From the NCBI GenBank assembly GCA_029263395.1, contig JAJCXO010000067.1, positions 1 through 64,000 on the forward strand: a stretch of 64,000 nucleotides of DNA, in the 5' to 3' direction. Source of the DNA: Acidobacteriota bacterium. GTDB lineage: Bacteria; Acidobacteriota; Thermoanaerobaculia; Multivoradales; J023. Every line of letters starts with the position of its first letter. The stretch's first letter is position 1. Of the stretch, positions 1 through 46,808 are shown piece by piece. Under the pieces are notes generated by a model. That model was not told the origin of the DNA. It did no database searches and saw only the letters and a program-made list of their open reading frames with translations. A program made the translations under genes and the position numbers.

Positions 1-1
1 A

Positions 2-592
2 GAGGCTTTGATGGACGGCATACCGTTGCAAGGGGTTTGGTATGCCCGTTCCGAAGAATACGAAGCTAGGCGCCAAGCACAACGTCGAGCAGCTCGACGA
101 GGGACCGAGGTCGAAGAACTCGACCGTAGTGCTTTTATGGAACTCTACACCGTCCAGCTAGCACCGCTCCCCTGTTGGAAAGACTTATCGCTCGCTACCC
201 GTCGACAGCATGTGACCGAAATGATCGTCGAGATCGAGGCCGAAGCAGCGACCCAGCGCGCCGAACTCGGTATCGAACCCCTTGGTATGGATGCTATCCG
301 CAACCAAGATCCGTTCACCCAGGCCGTCCACAGCAAGCGCAGTCCCAAACCACTTTGTCACGCTGCCAGCAAAACCATGCGCGACCGCATGAAGCTCGCC
401 TATAGCGCCTTCGTCGAGATGTTCCAAGAGGCTTCACTCAACGTAAAACTTGGCAGAGTCACTGAGGCGATCTTCCCCAAACATTGCTTTCCACCGAGCC
501 TGCCTTTTGTTCGCACCGGTGATGCGATCGATCCGCTCGCTGACGCGGGTGGGGCTGTACGCTGGGCAACTTGGTCGCCAGCGGCTAGCTGA
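2..592 (+). CDS. REP-associated tyrosine transposase (RAYT), C-terminal part
   Basis: The frame is open to the left edge of the window, so this is the tail of a longer gene; the TTG/ATG at 8-13 are probably internal codons. The visible part (GVWYARSEEYEARRQA, LPCWKDLS, IEPLGMDAI, KRSPKPLCHAASK, and FPPSLPFV near the end) matches what I know of the region that follows the HUH Y1 domain in RAYTs of Acidobacteria-like genomes. The catalytic HUH and Tyr motifs would lie upstream, outside the window. RAYTs act on short palindromic REP elements, and a REP-like 27-bp repeat is present at 44241-44321. Assignment is by recalled family pattern, so the call is moderate. Confidence 0.6.
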   Translation, partial: EALMDGIPLQGVWYARSEEYEARRQAQRRAARRGTEVEELDRSAFMELYTVQLAPLPCWKDLSLATRRQHVTEMIVEIEAEAATQRAELGIEPLGMDAIRNQDPFTQAVHSKRSPKPLCHAASKTMRDRMKLAYSAFVEMFQEASLNVKLGRVTEAIFPKHCFPPSLPFVRTGDAIDPLADAGGAVRWATWSPAAS

Positions 593-1290
593 ACCGAGTC
601 GCAAGTTGCACCAGCTTGGCTACGAGGCGTTGATTGAATTCTGATATCTGCGCCTGCTTGGAGAGGTGTACCTTCATGTAGTCGGGATTCCAGAGAATTC
701 AAGCTAAAGGCAACTTGGTAGCTACCGAATTGCTTTGTTGGCTCCGAAGTCGTGCTTCGTGCTCCGGGAACAGTGCTTCAGCGAGCCAAAACCTTGAGAT
801 AAGGCTTCGATTTTTGGTCAGTTTACGTCCTCTTCCGAAACCCCTGGCTCCTCATTCCGCTTCCCCTGGTCGAGGCCTGATCGATCCAGCTCTGATGGCT
901 CCAACCGGGCGGGAACACCGGTGGATCCACACCATCACGGACTGATCCCCACGTGCCAACACCTCGAATTCGGCTACCAAAGCTCCAAACCCCGGTGCGG
1001 CCGAGTTTGTTGGCCGACTTTTGCCTTAGTACCGCGGTGCAGACGCGTTTGTCGGTCGACAATTGCGTTAGCACGCGGTGTTAGCGCGTTTGCCGACCGA
1101 CAATTAGCTAAACACCTGGGTGTTTCCTCCAATGTCGGCCGACATTTGGGCCCGCACCGCGGTGCTCGGGCCATGATTGACGGACTTGGGCGAGCCAATC
1201 CGCTCGAAAAGGTCTCCTTGGGTGGTTGAGGCGAACGGCGGGGCTGTTCCAGCCCCCCTTAGAGAGGCTCGATCGGGTTAAGATTCGACC
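593..1290. other. Intergenic region holding a palindrome array
   Basis: About 700 bases without a convincing gene. Short reading frames exist on both strands but they run through the repeated palindromes and have no ribosome binding site. The first 390 bases show nothing recognisable. The stretch 988-1164 is a phased array described separately. From 1165 to the dehydratase start at 1291 I see no clear promoter and only a weak purine stretch before the ATG. Confidence 0.6.
988..1164. repeat. Array of alternating 10-bp palindromes with 21-bp phasing
   Basis: Two dyad types alternate. Type 1 approximates GTCGGCCGAC, at 1009-1018, 1051-1060, 1092-1101 and 1134-1143. Type 2 approximates CACCGCGGTG, at 1030-1039, 1071-1080, 1113-1122 and 1155-1164, with a degenerate copy at 988-997. 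Successive centres are 20-21 bp apart, about two helical turns. The last pair is perfect: TGTCGGCCGACA at 1133-1144 and GCACCGCGGTGC at 1154-1165. Spacing was counted by eye from the sequence. The function is unknown; a multi-site operator, an iteron-like array or a REP-derived tandem repeat are all possible. Confidence 0.75.
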
Positions 1291-2280
1291 ATGACCACCG
1301 AACATACCGACGCTGTTCCAACCATCGACGACATCCGAGCCGCCCGCGCGCAACTCGGCGACCGTATCCGCCATACCCCTGTGTGGGCATGGCGTGGCCG
1401 GGACATCGCTGAAGCGGTGGGTGACGGCACCGAGGTGTTCCTCAAGCTCGAACTGTTCCAATACGCCGGTACCTTCAAACCCCGTGGCGCGCTGCTGAAC
1501 ATGCTCGCCTTGACTCCCGACGAGTTGACCCGGGGTGTCACCGCCGTCAGTGCCGGTAACCACGCCATTGCCGTCGGCTACGCCGCCCAGGCGCTCGGCA
1601 CCAGCGCCAAGGTGGTCATGTTGGCTTCCGCCAACCCGGCCCGCGTCCAGGCCTGCGCCGACTACGGCGCCGAAGTGGTCCCGATGCCCGATGTCCATCA
1701 AGCCTTCGACGAGGTCCACCGCATCGAACGGGACGAAGGTCGCGCCTTCATCCATCCTTTCGAAGGCCCTCGCACCGCTCTCGGTACCGCCACCGTCGGT
1801 CTAGAGCTCACCGATCAAGTCGAAAACCTGGACGCTGTCATCGTGCCGATCGGCGGAGGCGGGCTCTGTGCTGGCGTCGCCATGGCGGTCAAGCTTGCCC
1901 AGCCTAGCTGCCAAGTCATCGGTGTCGAGCCCGAAGGCGCCGACTCCATGCACCGCAGCTTCGCCGCTGGCGAGCCACAGTCGATCGACAAAGTCCGCAC
2001 CATCGCCGACAGCCTCGGGGCCCCTTACGCCGCCCCCTACAGCTTCAGCCTCTGCCACCGTTTCGTCGACGACCTCGTCAAAATCACCGACGACCAAATG
2101 CGCCAGGCCATGCACCTGCTTTTCAGCAGCATGAAGCTCGCCGTCGAGCCCGCTGGCGCCGCTGCCACCGCTGCCCTCTGTGGGCCCCTGAAGCAACGTC
2201 TCGCCGGCAAACGGGTCGGCGTCATCGTCTGCGGCTCCAACATCGACACTGGAACGTACGGGTCGCTGATGGCGGGTTGA
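1291..2280 (+). CDS. PLP-dependent threonine/serine dehydratase
   Basis: A 329-residue fold-type II PLP enzyme. The Schiff-base lysine is K63 in TFKPRGA, an SAGN substrate-binding loop lies at 87-90, the glycine-rich phosphate loop GGGGL is at 188-192, and CGSN near the C-terminus supplies the Ser that contacts the pyridine nitrogen. There is no C-terminal ACT domain, so it resembles the catabolic (TdcB-like) or serine-racemase-like branch rather than allosteric IlvA. The expected reaction is deamination of L-threonine or L-serine to the 2-oxo acid plus ammonia in the cytosol. It stands alone: the gene to the right is on the other strand. The palindrome array at 988-1164 lies about 130 bp upstream and could bear on its control, but nothing else shows this. 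Confidence 0.88.
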   Translation: MTTEHTDAVPTIDDIRAARAQLGDRIRHTPVWAWRGRDIAEAVGDGTEVFLKLELFQYAGTFKPRGALLNMLALTPDELTRGVTAVSAGNHAIAVGYAAQALGTSAKVVMLASANPARVQACADYGAEVVPMPDVHQAFDEVHRIERDEGRAFIHPFEGPRTALGTATVGLELTDQVENLDAVIVPIGGGGLCAGVAMAVKLAQPSCQVIGVEPEGADSMHRSFAAGEPQSIDKVRTIADSLGAPYAAPYSFSLCHRFVDDLVKITDDQMRQAMHLLFSSMKLAVEPAGAAATAALCGPLKQRLAGKRVGVIVCGSNIDTGTYGSLMAG

Positions 2281-2329
2281 GTCTCGCCTCACCACGGCCG
2301 AGACTAGCCCTAGCCGTCAACCCGTTCAA

Positions 2330-2938
2330 TTAGGCTGACCCTTTTCGAGTCTCCTCCAGCATGTTGCAGAACAACGCCCCTTGTTCGATCGCGTCATCCA
2401 ACGCGATATGACTATGGGGTAGATCGTCGAACCAATGACGCGGCATGTTGCGTTTGGTGGTCTGGCGGAAGCGTGATCCCAACACCGCCATCGCGAAGGT
2501 TTTGATGTCGAGGGCCGAGTACGAGAAGGCGCTACGGCCGACAAATCGCATCAGGTACCAGTAAACGAAGGTGAAGTCGAAGCCTGCCGGATAGGCGACA
2601 AACACTGGCTTACCCGGCAGGTGACGTACCCAAGCGTCGTATTCGGGCATGACCTCTTCCGGCGGCCGGATATTCGACCGGCAAGCCGCCCAGGCCTCGG
2701 GCTGAGATCGCCACCACCGCATCGTCCGTGGGTCACCCTCGGCGCCCGGCAACAACTCGAGGTTGGCGGAGTAGGTATCGACCAGGGTCTTGTCGGCGAA
2801 ATAGGCAGCGGAGCCGAAGCTCAGCATGGAGTGCGGGCCGGGGATTTGCCCGTCCGCCTCGATATCGGTCGAGACGTAGATCTCAGGTTTGTTGGCGCTC
2901 ACCGGCTCGTCCAGATTGAACCGAATACGATTAGGCAC
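2330..2938 (-). CDS. DEDDh-type 3'-5' exonuclease
   Basis: A 202-residue protein with all DEDDh exonuclease motifs: D25 and E27 in TDIEADG (ExoI), D121 in [11 protein letters not shown] (ExoII) and HIALDD (H177 to D182) as ExoIII. These residues bind two metal ions in DnaQ, RNase T and oligoribonuclease relatives. The length fits a stand-alone exonuclease domain. The start is GTG at 2938, overlapping the stop of the upstream DUF433 gene by 8 bases (GTGCCTAA), which implies translational coupling. Substrate (RNA or DNA) cannot be told from sequence. The pairing with a DUF433 protein is unusual, because DUF433 genes normally accompany a small PIN-like DUF5615 gene. Confidence 0.82.
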
Positions 2939-3257
2939 GATTCAAAGCGGCTAGCTTCGCTTGCAAGAGAGACGGGTTGTCGCGCTTGAAGGCTTCGACA
3001 AACGCCTTGTCCGCTTCGGCCGCCTGATCAATCTCGGACCGATGATCGTGATAGTACGCCATGGCTGCATAAACCGATGCCAGGGACAGATCATAGGTAC
3101 CTGCGATCTCTTCTAGGGAGTGCCCTAATCGCCCGTACATGAGCGCCACATCCGCAACCGTGATGCGCGTGCCGGCGATCCGCGGCTTGCCGCCGCGCAC
3201 TTCGGGGGTCATCTCAATGTGGTAATCAGTAGGCTGTTGAGCAACTGCTATCGACAT
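2931..3257 (-). CDS. DUF433 (VapB45-like antitoxin) protein
   Basis: A 108-residue protein with the DUF433 core [18 protein letters not shown] followed by a helix-turn-helix-like segment ([26 protein letters not shown]). DUF433 proteins are small DNA-binding or antitoxin-like proteins usually encoded with a PIN-like DUF5615 toxin. Here the downstream, translationally coupled gene is instead a DEDDh exonuclease. The start ATG at 3257 follows GGAGAA with usual spacing. The C-terminal ~35 residues extend past the DUF433 core and are charged, perhaps the partner-binding part; that last point is inference. Confidence 0.82.
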
Positions 3258-44236: not shown

Positions 44237-46319
44237 ACGCGGGAACCTCACACCTGTCCCCCTGCGGGGGAACCTAACGCCTGTCCCCCTTCGGGGGAAC
44301 CTAACACCTGTCCCCCTTCGGGGGAACCCATTCATCGGGCCGCGTCCGTTCGTGCCGGGCGAGAAGCTCTACGGACGCGACCGCGAGATCGCCGAGCTGA
44401 TCGACCGCCTCCACAGCGAGCGCATCATCCTGCTCCACTCGCCCTCCGGTGCCGGCAAGAGCTCGCTGATGCAAGCGGGCCTCCTACCCGAGCTGAAGGG
44501 GTCCTTCGACATCTGGGGACCGACCCGGGTCAATCAAGAGCCGACGCCGGGCGCGGTCAACCGCTACGTGGCGAGCGCCAACCTGGGCTTCGAGGAAGCG
44601 GTCCCGGAGCGCCTCCGCCGGCCGTCCGAGACCCTCGTCGAACAGACTTTGCCCGAGTACTTCGCCGGCCGCCCACGGCGCAAACGTGCGCCGCGTAACG
44701 TTTTGCTGATCTTCGACCAGTTCGAAGAAGTGCTGACCGTCGACCCGCTGGCGGTGGCGGCCAAACGCGACTTCTTCGACCAACTTGGCCAGCTGCTGCA
44801 CAGCCCGCGCATCTGGGCACTCTTCGCTATGCGCGAGGACTACCTGGCGCAGCTCGAAGGCGGCGGCCTCGAGCTGGTGGAGGACAAGGGTGGGCGGCAA
44901 GCCACGCTGCCCTTGGCGCGGCGGGTACCGACACACTTCAAGAATCGATTCCGCATCGACCTGCTTGGCCTCGGCTCGGCGCGCGAGGCCATGGTCGAAC
45001 CCGCCCGCACCGGCGGCCGTGACTTCCCGGCGGTGGATCGGCTGGTACGCGATCTGGCGACCATGAAGGTGCAGCAACCCGACGGTCACGTCCGTCCGCA
45101 GACCGGCCTTTACGTGGAGCCGGTTCAGTTGCAGGTCGTGTGCCGGCGCCTGTGGGACGCCATGCCCGCCGACGACCTGTCGATCGACGCCCAAGATCTC
45201 GACCGCTTCGGCAAGGTCGACCAAGCCCTGGGCGCCTACTACGATGAATCGGTGAGCGACGTCGCCGGACGCCGCGACGGCGTCGAACGGGACGTCCGCG
45301 AGTGGTTTGACCAGCTCATCACCGGCGGCGGCATCCGCGGGCAGGTGCCGATGGAGGCCGAGGCCAGCGGCGGCCTGGCCAACGACCTGATCGATCGCCT
45401 GCGCAACACCCACCTGGTGCGGGCCGAGAAACGCGCCGGGGCGACCTGGTTCGAGCTCGCCCACGACCGCCTGATCGAGCCGGTGCGAACGAGGAACGAC
45501 CGCTGGTTCGAGGATCACCTCGGGGAGGTGCAGAAGCGGGCGGCGCTGTGGGACAGGGAGGGCCGGCCGGCGGGGCTCTTGATGCGCGGCGAGGAGCTGG
45601 CCGAGGGCGAACATTGGGCAGCGGGCAACCAGACCGGTCTCACCGACATGGAGCAGCGGTTTCTCGCCGATTGCCGCGAGGCGCAGGACGCCACCCTCAA
45701 GGAAGAGCAGCAGGCGCGGCGGATCCGGAAGTGGGCCAAAGCGGCGATGGTCGCGGGCGCCCTGGCCCTCCTAGCCAGCGTTGTCGCGGGCTTGAAATGG
45801 CGGGAAGCGGAGCAACGGAGGACGGAGGCCGAGGATCAGAGGACAGAGGCCGAGGACCAACGCAAGAAGATCGCGGAGTTGATCCTGGAAGCGAATCGCC
45901 AGAGCGGCCGCGCGCAGGACCTGGAACAGATCCTCGAAGGCCCGCTGGAGGAACTCGTCACCGTGCGCGCCCGCGCCGAGCCGCTCGAACGGAACGGACA
46001 ACCCATCACACAGAGAATCGGCGGCGCGAAGATGAGGCTCTGGGCGATCACGCTGTGGATCGATGTGCCGGACATTCGAAAGGCCGAGATCGAAGCGGTC
46101 GATTACAAGTTCCCCAACCCGACCTATAGGCCACAGTCGAAGACCGGGGAGGAGAGCGACAGCGGATTTGCGATCACCTACACCGGTTGGGGTTGCCTGG
46201 ACAACGTGGAGTTATGGATCCGGACGACCGCGAAAGAGCCGCCTCTCCGGACGAACGTATTCGACCAATGCGAGGCGCTAGGCTGGTCGGAAGGTATCCC
46301 CGGTACCACGTTCGAGTAG
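44223..46319 (+). CDS. nSTAND ATPase with TM helix, coiled coil and YEATS-like tail
   Basis: 698 residues. Residues 7-34 are three GNLTPVPLR repeats from a 27-bp DNA repeat. The nSTAND1 core begins at NPFIGPRPFVPGEKLYGRD, with Walker A SPSGAGKSS (73-81) and Walker B NVLLIFDQFEEV (159-170); helical STAND sub-domains follow to ~490. A TM helix (AAMVAGALALLASVVAGL, ~505-523) and an E/R-rich coiled coil (REAEQRRTEAEDQRTEAEDQ) come next. The last ~100 residues (LWAITLWIDVPDIRKAEIEA, FAITYTGWGCLDNVELWIR) match the pattern of the prokaryotic YEATS-like (pYEATS) domain. STAND proteins are signal-triggered oligomerising switches. Coupling to the CHAT-SIR2 gene suggests it controls that effector; this is inference. 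Confidence 0.82.
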   Translation: MNGSERGNLTPVPLRGNLTPVPLRGNLTPVPLRGNPFIGPRPFVPGEKLYGRDREIAELIDRLHSERIILLHSPSGAGKSSLMQAGLLPELKGSFDIWGPTRVNQEPTPGAVNRYVASANLGFEEAVPERLRRPSETLVEQTLPEYFAGRPRRKRAPRNVLLIFDQFEEVLTVDPLAVAAKRDFFDQLGQLLHSPRIWALFAMREDYLAQLEGGGLELVEDKGGRQATLPLARRVPTHFKNRFRIDLLGLGSAREAMVEPARTGGRDFPAVDRLVRDLATMKVQQPDGHVRPQTGLYVEPVQLQVVCRRLWDAMPADDLSIDAQDLDRFGKVDQALGAYYDESVSDVAGRRDGVERDVREWFDQLITGGGIRGQVPMEAEASGGLANDLIDRLRNTHLVRAEKRAGATWFELAHDRLIEPVRTRNDRWFEDHLGEVQKRAALWDREGRPAGLLMRGEELAEGEHWAAGNQTGLTDMEQRFLADCREAQDATLKEEQQARRIRKWAKAAMVAGALALLASVVAGLKWREAEQRRTEAEDQRTEAEDQRKKIAELILEANRQSGRAQDLEQILEGPLEELVTVRARAEPLERNGQPITQRIGGAKMRLWAITLWIDVPDIRKAEIEAVDYKFPNPTYRPQSKTGEESDSGFAITYTGWGCLDNVELWIRTTAKEPPLRTNVFDQCEALGWSEGIPGTTFE
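44241..44321. repeat. REP-like 27-bp tandem repeat read in frame, three copies
   Basis: Units at 44241-44267, 44268-44294 and 44295-44321 share GGGAACCTAACACCTGTCCC and a CCCCCTTCGGGGG hairpin with a TTCG loop; a partial fourth copy follows. The motif (GGGGACAGGTGTTAGGTTCC on the other strand) is one I know as a recurring palindromic element in genomes with RAYT transposases, and a RAYT tail is present at 2-592. The 27-bp length keeps the reading frame of the nSTAND gene. Confidence 0.85.
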
Positions 46320-46726: not shown

Positions 46727-46808
46727 TCAGTCAGGGTCAGGGTCAGTCAGGGTCAGGGTCAGTCAGGGTCAGGGTCAGTCAGGGTCAGGGTCAGGGTCAG
46801 TCAGGGTC
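46727..46808. repeat. GGGTCA-type short tandem array
   Basis: GTCAGGGTCAGG-type units repeat without interruption over about 82 bp, with a higher-order period near 16 bp. It is low-complexity slippage DNA placed between repeat copy A and the lipoprotein gene. Confidence 0.9.

Follow-up and report, generated by a model that had tools for sequence, protein, structure and literature searches.

The array of phased palindromes near the start of the 64-kb stretch analysed here (hereafter the window) lies within a repeat that has many relatives in its own genome. We infer, with a probability of roughly 0.55, that it is a dispersed, non-coding intergenic repeat of about 350 bp that would have spread in the manner of REP/BIME elements or MITEs and whose dyads would be sites for a dimeric protein. 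We observe phasing of the dyads, dispersed copies, sister families, a varied gene context and, in the family that we call B, conservation of the dyad arms. Rather than switching the neighbouring enzyme gene, the window array is probably a repeat of a mobile or architectural kind.

In the window, nine phased dyads with a period of 41-42 bp occupy positions 988-1164, as located from dyad centres, TRF and a chain test. Five are CACC..GGTG-like (C-type) and four are GTCG..CGAC-like (G-type), in strict alternation and, like the array itself, with no strand assigned. The C-type dyads are AACCCCGGTG (988-997, centre 992.5), TACCGCGGTG (1030-1039, centre 1034.5), CACGCGGTG in a 9-bp form (1072-1080, centre 1076), CACCTGGGTG (1113-1122, centre 1117.5) and CACCGCGGTG (1155-1164, centre 1159.5); between them stand the G-type dyads GTTGGCCGAC (1009-1018, centre 1013.5), GTCGGTCGAC (1051-1060, centre 1055.5), GCCGACCGAC (1092-1101, centre 1096.5) and GTCGGCCGAC (1134-1143, centre 1138.5). 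A sequence-only reading had described palindromes of two alternating kinds at 20-21 bp, and this is confirmed for all nine, with successive centre steps of 21, 21, 21, 20.5, 20.5, 21, 21 and 21 bp. Several of the window dyads differ from the consensus by one mismatch. TRF independently reports a 42-bp unit in 2.8 copies at 989-1105. With one mismatch allowed, the 64-kb window contains 73 G-like and 70 C-like 10-mers, and the longest alternating chain with steps of 19-22 bp has nine members; by the same measure, 100 first-order Markov simulations of the window gave a longest chain of one in 74 cases, two in 26 and never more.

When a palindromic unit is repeated in tandem, a second kind of dyad arises automatically half a period away, and alternation alone is therefore no proof of two proteins. 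What is to be explained is that the unit is palindromic and that it measures 41-42 bp; the alternation needs no second explanation. The window also contains further short tandem repeats at 46727-46808 (16 bp x 4.2, 100%) and at 44241-44328 (27 bp x 3.3, 93%).

The coordinates given earlier for the array hold, but the feature is larger than was first described, since similarity to other copies extends from about 862 to about 1214 on the plus strand (about 350 bp). These limits of the whole family A element are approximate and its left and right ends differ between copies; the left limit near 862, where similarity begins in the longest copies, is common to the copies in the window, C150 and C104, and the right limit at 1214 is common to those in the window and C150. 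With window positions 985-1180 as the query against its own genome (G000; 10.7 Mb in 291 contigs), we recovered eight more family A copies with similar limits (contigs C175, C37, C150, C272, C104, C24, C30 and C88), and the best matches are 78-89% identical across the nine loci, the window included. The number of units varies within the family, with more in C30 than in the window and fewer in C24. A diverged sister, family B, is present in 11 copies in G000 (C172, C234, C225, C46, C148, C265, C4, C92, C208, C35 and C135) and in two copies in G001, the one further genome of this genus that we examined. G001 also carries families C/D, family E is present in both genomes, and X denotes a single array in C47 of G000, which therefore carries about 25 loci (9 A, 11 B, 4 E and 1 X).

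At least four sequence families in the genus are built on one design, namely a palindromic unit of 41-42 bp with a dyad every 20.5-21 bp on the same helical face. In each, a near-constant TGTCGRYCGACA dyad alternates, at a period of 41-42 bp, with a second dyad that is peculiar to the family and reads CACC..GGTG in A, TTACC.GGTGA in B, TGACAYCAGCTGTCA-like in C and GATCAYCGGCTGATT-like in E. The second dyad thus differs among these four families yet is palindromic in every one of them. Its length varies between 9 and 10 bp in A and between 11 and 12 bp in B, and it is this variation that makes the period 41 or 42 bp; 34 of 54 typed units measure 41 bp and 20 measure 42 bp. The typed units represent 54 of the 60 pairs in G000 and G001, with family E units turned to one orientation. 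Untyped are the duplicates (C30:95850 and one of two identical C150 units), C30:123253, in which the second dyad is not evident although it is one of the pattern matches of G000 counted below, and three pairs of G001, C113, C265 (another motif) and C751 (spacing 15).

The phasing recurs genome-wide. Across 148 genomes of the class, we scanned for the pattern GTCGNNCGAC-N{5,34}-GTCGNNCGAC, which admits centre spacings of 15 to 44 bp. G000 gave 45 matches and G001 gave 15, whereas a control pattern read backwards gave 5 and 1, respectively. The next highest of the 148 genomes has 10 matches at scattered spacings, and the occurrence of at least one match in 75 of the 148 was taken as background. 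All 45 GTCGNNCGAC pairs in G000 are spaced by 41 or 42 bp, in agreement with the earlier proposal that the sites are phased on one face of the DNA, and so are 14 of the 15 pairs in G001. The same proposal had named, as evidence that would count against it, a drift of the unit in relatives that destroys the dyads; in the relatives, the dyads are kept while the sequence changes.

The elements occupy a varied gene context. A simple ORF caller places all 20 copies of families A and B in the gaps between ORFs or, at most, with an overlap of under 100 bp at the end of a called ORF, and the genes beside them are unrelated; in this survey the B loci are partly not in element orientation and the limits are approximate, so that it carries no claim about orientation. 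Random placement relative to genes, which the sequence-only reading had named as evidence against itself, is seen in part only, in the scatter of copies among unrelated genes. The family A copy in C88 begins inside a PemK-like frame (L016:7477-7716) that matches Pfam profile positions 3-33 of 109, below the cut-off, and the remainder of the PemK-like gene was not seen downstream of the element; this truncation suggests an insertion or deletion there. A PIN-domain ORF lies just upstream of the PemK-like frame.

Comparison of the two genomes of the genus indicates both persistence and turnover. One B element, found in G000:C92 and G001:C363, is common by descent, with about 1.5 kb of flank at 77.6% identity. 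The B element beside an agmatinase-like gene in C148 is absent beside the G001 orthologue. As the first copy is shared and the second is missing from G001, the elements persist long and yet also come or go. A search for empty sites yielded this one absence at C148, where the neighbouring sequence differs, and no clean empty site. Arrays of three different families are accompanied, at a distance of about 0.3-0.5 kb, by a second dispersed repeat made of inverted AGCCCCGGG blocks (L020:2163-2583, L012:3071-3191 and L191:3958-4281).

Dyad arms are preferentially conserved in family B. Its 13 copies align over 312-316 bp nearly without gaps, with a mean pairwise identity of 0.92 in the arms of dyad 1, 0.73 in its centres, 0.88 in the arms of dyad 2, 0.70 in the linkers and 0.58 in the flanks, although concerted evolution between copies could also keep the arms alike. 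The palindrome score averaged over the 13 copies, with position 0 set at the first G dyad, peaks at -146.5, -126.5, -104.5, -83.5, -62.5, -42, 0, 20.5, 41, 62.5 and 104.5; it is weak at -21 and +83.5, and off-lattice peaks occur at -32.5, -15.5, -11, 10.5 and 15.5, among others. In the left flank of family B, the 21-bp lattice of dyads continues even though neighbouring dyads are dissimilar in sequence. There, out of 41, the phase dictated by the core comes first at a period of 21, third at 20.75 and fifth at 20.5; when the period was left free between 15 and 28, the best value was 21.0-21.25. Standard pairs fill 63.4% of cells in the six left-flank dyads versus 28-42% for slid versions, and two-sided changes occur in 28 cells versus 17.6 +/- 3.2 after shuffling, a count reached by 0 of 500 shuffles. 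Pairing and two-sided changes in this flank are support for the lattice and not proof of it, given that the lattice centres were picked from the same 13 sequences and that the shuffles ignore relatedness. Over the whole B element, the signal of covariation is weak, the five measures being reached by 17, 27, 10, 257 and 86 of 500 shuffles, since there is little variation in the core dyads. The same lattice test was negative in the left flank of family A, at ranks 7 to 40 of 41 for the four of nine copies that have the common left part, and a Fourier test of the palindrome score was not significant for single elements.

These measurements bear on a neutral history, which had been raised from the outset and which we regard as unlikely but deserving of serious weight. 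Here, a palindromic unit was duplicated in tandem, the copies were spread passively, and the phasing is a memory of the unit length. The variable unit numbers of family A fit such a satellite, as do two kinds of dyad at half a period, which follow from any tandem palindrome array; furthermore, both units of g1C363 carry the change of CGCTTTTG to CGCATTTG, which suggests homogenisation within the array. Against it stand the nearly gap-free alignment of the 13 B copies, with dyad arms far better kept than the flanks, and the dyads of dissimilar sequence that remain on the lattice with two-sided changes. Likewise, in the one orthologous copy (C92/C363), 132 of 160 core positions are identical (82%) versus 77.6% in the flanking gene region. 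A neutral satellite is conceivable for the array itself, but the arm conservation and the lattice of family B speak against a purely neutral history.

Alternatively, the elements may belong to a distinct class of phased-dyad lattices, in which selection would act on symmetry and a two-turn pitch over sequence by way of a polymerising protein, and similar arrays with 21/42-bp periods in unrelated phyla and in another family of the same class would be independent instances. We consider this doubtful. Dyad arrays of 21/42 bp are also found in Planctomycetaceae, Bacteroidales and Treponema. Our cross-phylum scan of contigs required two TGTCGNNCGACA motifs 40-44 bp apart, so that its matches are preselected for spacing; it returned 83 stretches, and the 80 loci listed were sorted by eye into 39 of one Burkholderia/Paraburkholderia sequence that looks coding (L073 and 38 more), 3 Streptomyces pairs that resemble repressor operators, 6 from the same-genus genome, 7 from one Planctomycetaceae genome and 25 others. 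When spacings of 13-43 were allowed in eight such genomes, 55 of 55 pairs stood at 21, 41 or 42 bp (in seven genomes, the eighth giving none), a result that is partly circular. Among 395 Bacteroidota genomes, the only match was in the one already known, and a pattern scan of viral contigs gave 0 matches. The cross-phylum arrays are sporadic and allow no general claim.

Several loci outside the genus can be described individually. The Burkholderia/Paraburkholderia loci consist of two TGTCGNNCGACA motifs 42 bp apart, retained throughout the group in one apparent coding region, and contain no array. Several contigs of the Planctomycetaceae MAG Roe453_bin113 carry 21-bp arrays of TGTCGYRCGACA between conserved flanks (L087, L077, L105, L145, L146, L148 and L129), a design that again places a variable array within a dispersed element. 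Finally, G066, from another family of the same class, has independent arrays of GTCRATYGAC / TTGATYGACGTCRATCAA dyads (L159 and L165) with a 21-bp period and unrelated sequence.

To the left of the window element, and outside its limits, a Y1 (HUH) transposase of RAYT/TIRYT type is represented by its C-terminal part (8-592, plus strand), the gene being cut by the contig start. A full-length copy at C285 is 90% identical and matches PF01797; about nine near-full copies are present in the genome, and Pfam Y1_Tnp matches 18 places. As the contig starts inside this multi-copy RAYT-like gene (window 1-592), the start of the window is an assembly break in a repeat. The insertion sequence ends near 848, and the array element begins within tens of bases of its right end.

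This adjacency raises the possibility that the elements are REP/BIME-type repeats of the classical kind, which the adjacent RAYT-like transposase would move in the form of single-stranded hairpins, an origin that we judge improbable. In its favour, the window copy abuts the right end of the RAYT-like insertion sequence, 22 bp separate the C24 array from a RAYT fragment, and the family B element of C46 has an IS200-like Y1 gene at a distance of about 80 bp; moreover, a distinct group of TIR-flanked tyrosine transposases is described for Acidobacteria (PMC3733652). However, only one of the eight RAYT loci examined, that of the window (L023), adjoins an array of this kind, and a stricter pattern of paired G dyads finds none at any of the eight. 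The genome also has about 25 loci, compared with the more than 100 copies usual for REPs according to PMC2817692. Insertion sequences may themselves target REP palindromes, as reported in PMC1525189, and this is a known other cause of adjacency. Because of such targeting, and because seven of the eight RAYT loci are free of arrays of this kind, the position of the transposase would point to an insertion beside a palindrome hotspot more than to parentage. The arrays were also considered as the ends of the RAYT insertion sequence and rejected, since the seven other RAYT loci lack them. A full RAYT insertion sequence of G000:C285 is preceded, at about 150 bp, by a different palindromic array (L024:226-715), with a unit of about 42 bp and the motif CCGATCGAGGGTCGATCGG.

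The dispersed repeat that we favour shares several traits with known systems. Like BIMEs and REPs, the elements are intergenic, dispersed, short palindromes in regular mosaic arrays, with two palindrome types and several families per genome; the copies of families A and B are dispersed intergenic palindromic repeats, one of which (C88) truncates a gene. Unlike them, they number about 25 loci in G000 and do not reach a REP-like copy number above 100, have no consistent RAYT flank, and have at least nine dyads in a common phase of 20.5-21 bp. They also lack the GTAG tag, no unpaired GTAG being present beside the dyads by reading of window 985-1180 and the unit list. CGTC-tagged REPs, as characterised by Di Nocera et al. 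2013 (PMC3733652), combine 8-9-bp stems and loops of 4-5 bases with an unpaired CGTC tag and, in most cases, a CCA tail; they too are short palindromes without a dedicated transposase, some of them clustered. The combination of tag, 8-9-bp stem starting with A-T pairs and CCA tail, as defined there, is not found here. By reading, family A has CGTC close to its second dyad, though on the minus strand alone, and no unit of families B and E contains it, so that these families differ from the tagged REPs.

MITEs and other small mobile sequences are likewise non-coding, a few hundred bp long and present at many intergenic places, but the elements here have no established TIR or TSD and no parent transposon was found for them, and their interior is a dyad lattice. 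Iteron and phased operator arrays also place repeats about two helical turns apart. Unlike those arrays, the elements are at many dispersed chromosomal loci; no replication initiator gene is present among the neighbours scanned, and iterons were rejected on context, with dispersed copies beside unrelated ORFs. Overall, the elements are dispersed repeats, REP/BIME/MITE-like in habit, whose interior is unusual, and we file them under none of these classes on account of the GTAG and CGTC comparisons and the lack of a demonstrated TIR or TSD. Our literature search found no description of 41-42-bp phased dyad arrays in Acidobacteriota, which does not prove their absence.

Under the reading that we prefer, the elements would spread as non-autonomous repeats in a REP/BIME- or MITE-like manner, and their dyads would be bound by a putative dimeric DNA-binding protein, either a transposase or an architectural protein, which may load every two helical turns along the array. 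No autonomous partner was found; a search of the genome with the left end as query, for a parent transposon, returned array elements only, and alignments read by eye for TIR and TSD revealed related motifs at both ends and neither a clear TIR nor a clear TSD. The second dyads of 9/10 bp in A and 11/12 bp in B are not what a rigid dimer would be expected to bind, which counts against dimer sites.

We consider it quite improbable that the array is instead transcribed and acts as a structured RNA, whether a string of hairpins, a terminator or an attenuator. The window strand folds at -97.1 kcal/mol (z = -5.86), but good folding is expected of any palindromic array by construction. Similarly, one strand of the second dyad has G.T in place of A.C in families A, B and E, but changes in the G dyad give A.C breaks on the very strand that the second dyad favours, so that the strand signals conflict, and family C has no strand bias. 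For the consensus folds of family B, the covariation term is 0.01 on one strand and 0.3 on the other, compensatory changes being absent from the one-strand consensus fold, and Rfam has no family at gathering score in window 1-3000. A structured RNA was rejected on the absence of covariation and of an Rfam match. Together, the lack of covariation and the conflicting strand signals favour recognition of the dyads as double-stranded DNA, against which stands the variable centre length of the second dyad.

Finally, the sequence-only reading had suggested control of the PALP-family serine/threonine dehydratase-like gene that neighbours the element outside its limits (1291-2280, plus strand), and an operator array of this kind is scarcely credible: the element does end 77 bp before the start codon, but the other 19 copies of families A and B (8 A and 11 B) adjoin unrelated genes, and no phased array lies within 1.5 kb upstream of the orthologue in any of the four same-family genomes whose upstream sequence is long enough (G002, G003, G005 and G006), the closest orthologue, in G001 of the same genus, being uninformative with only 103 bp of upstream sequence. 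We therefore rejected it on both grounds.

If the lattice is functional, the elements would represent a testable case of a bacterial repeat whose definition lies in symmetry and spacing rather than in sequence, and they would offer a route to a putative protein that reads dyads every two helical turns. They would also constitute a repeat class of Acidobacteriota that is missed by searches for tagged REPs. If the lattice is neutral, it would be a clear case in which the tandem copying of a palindrome imitates a regulatory array.
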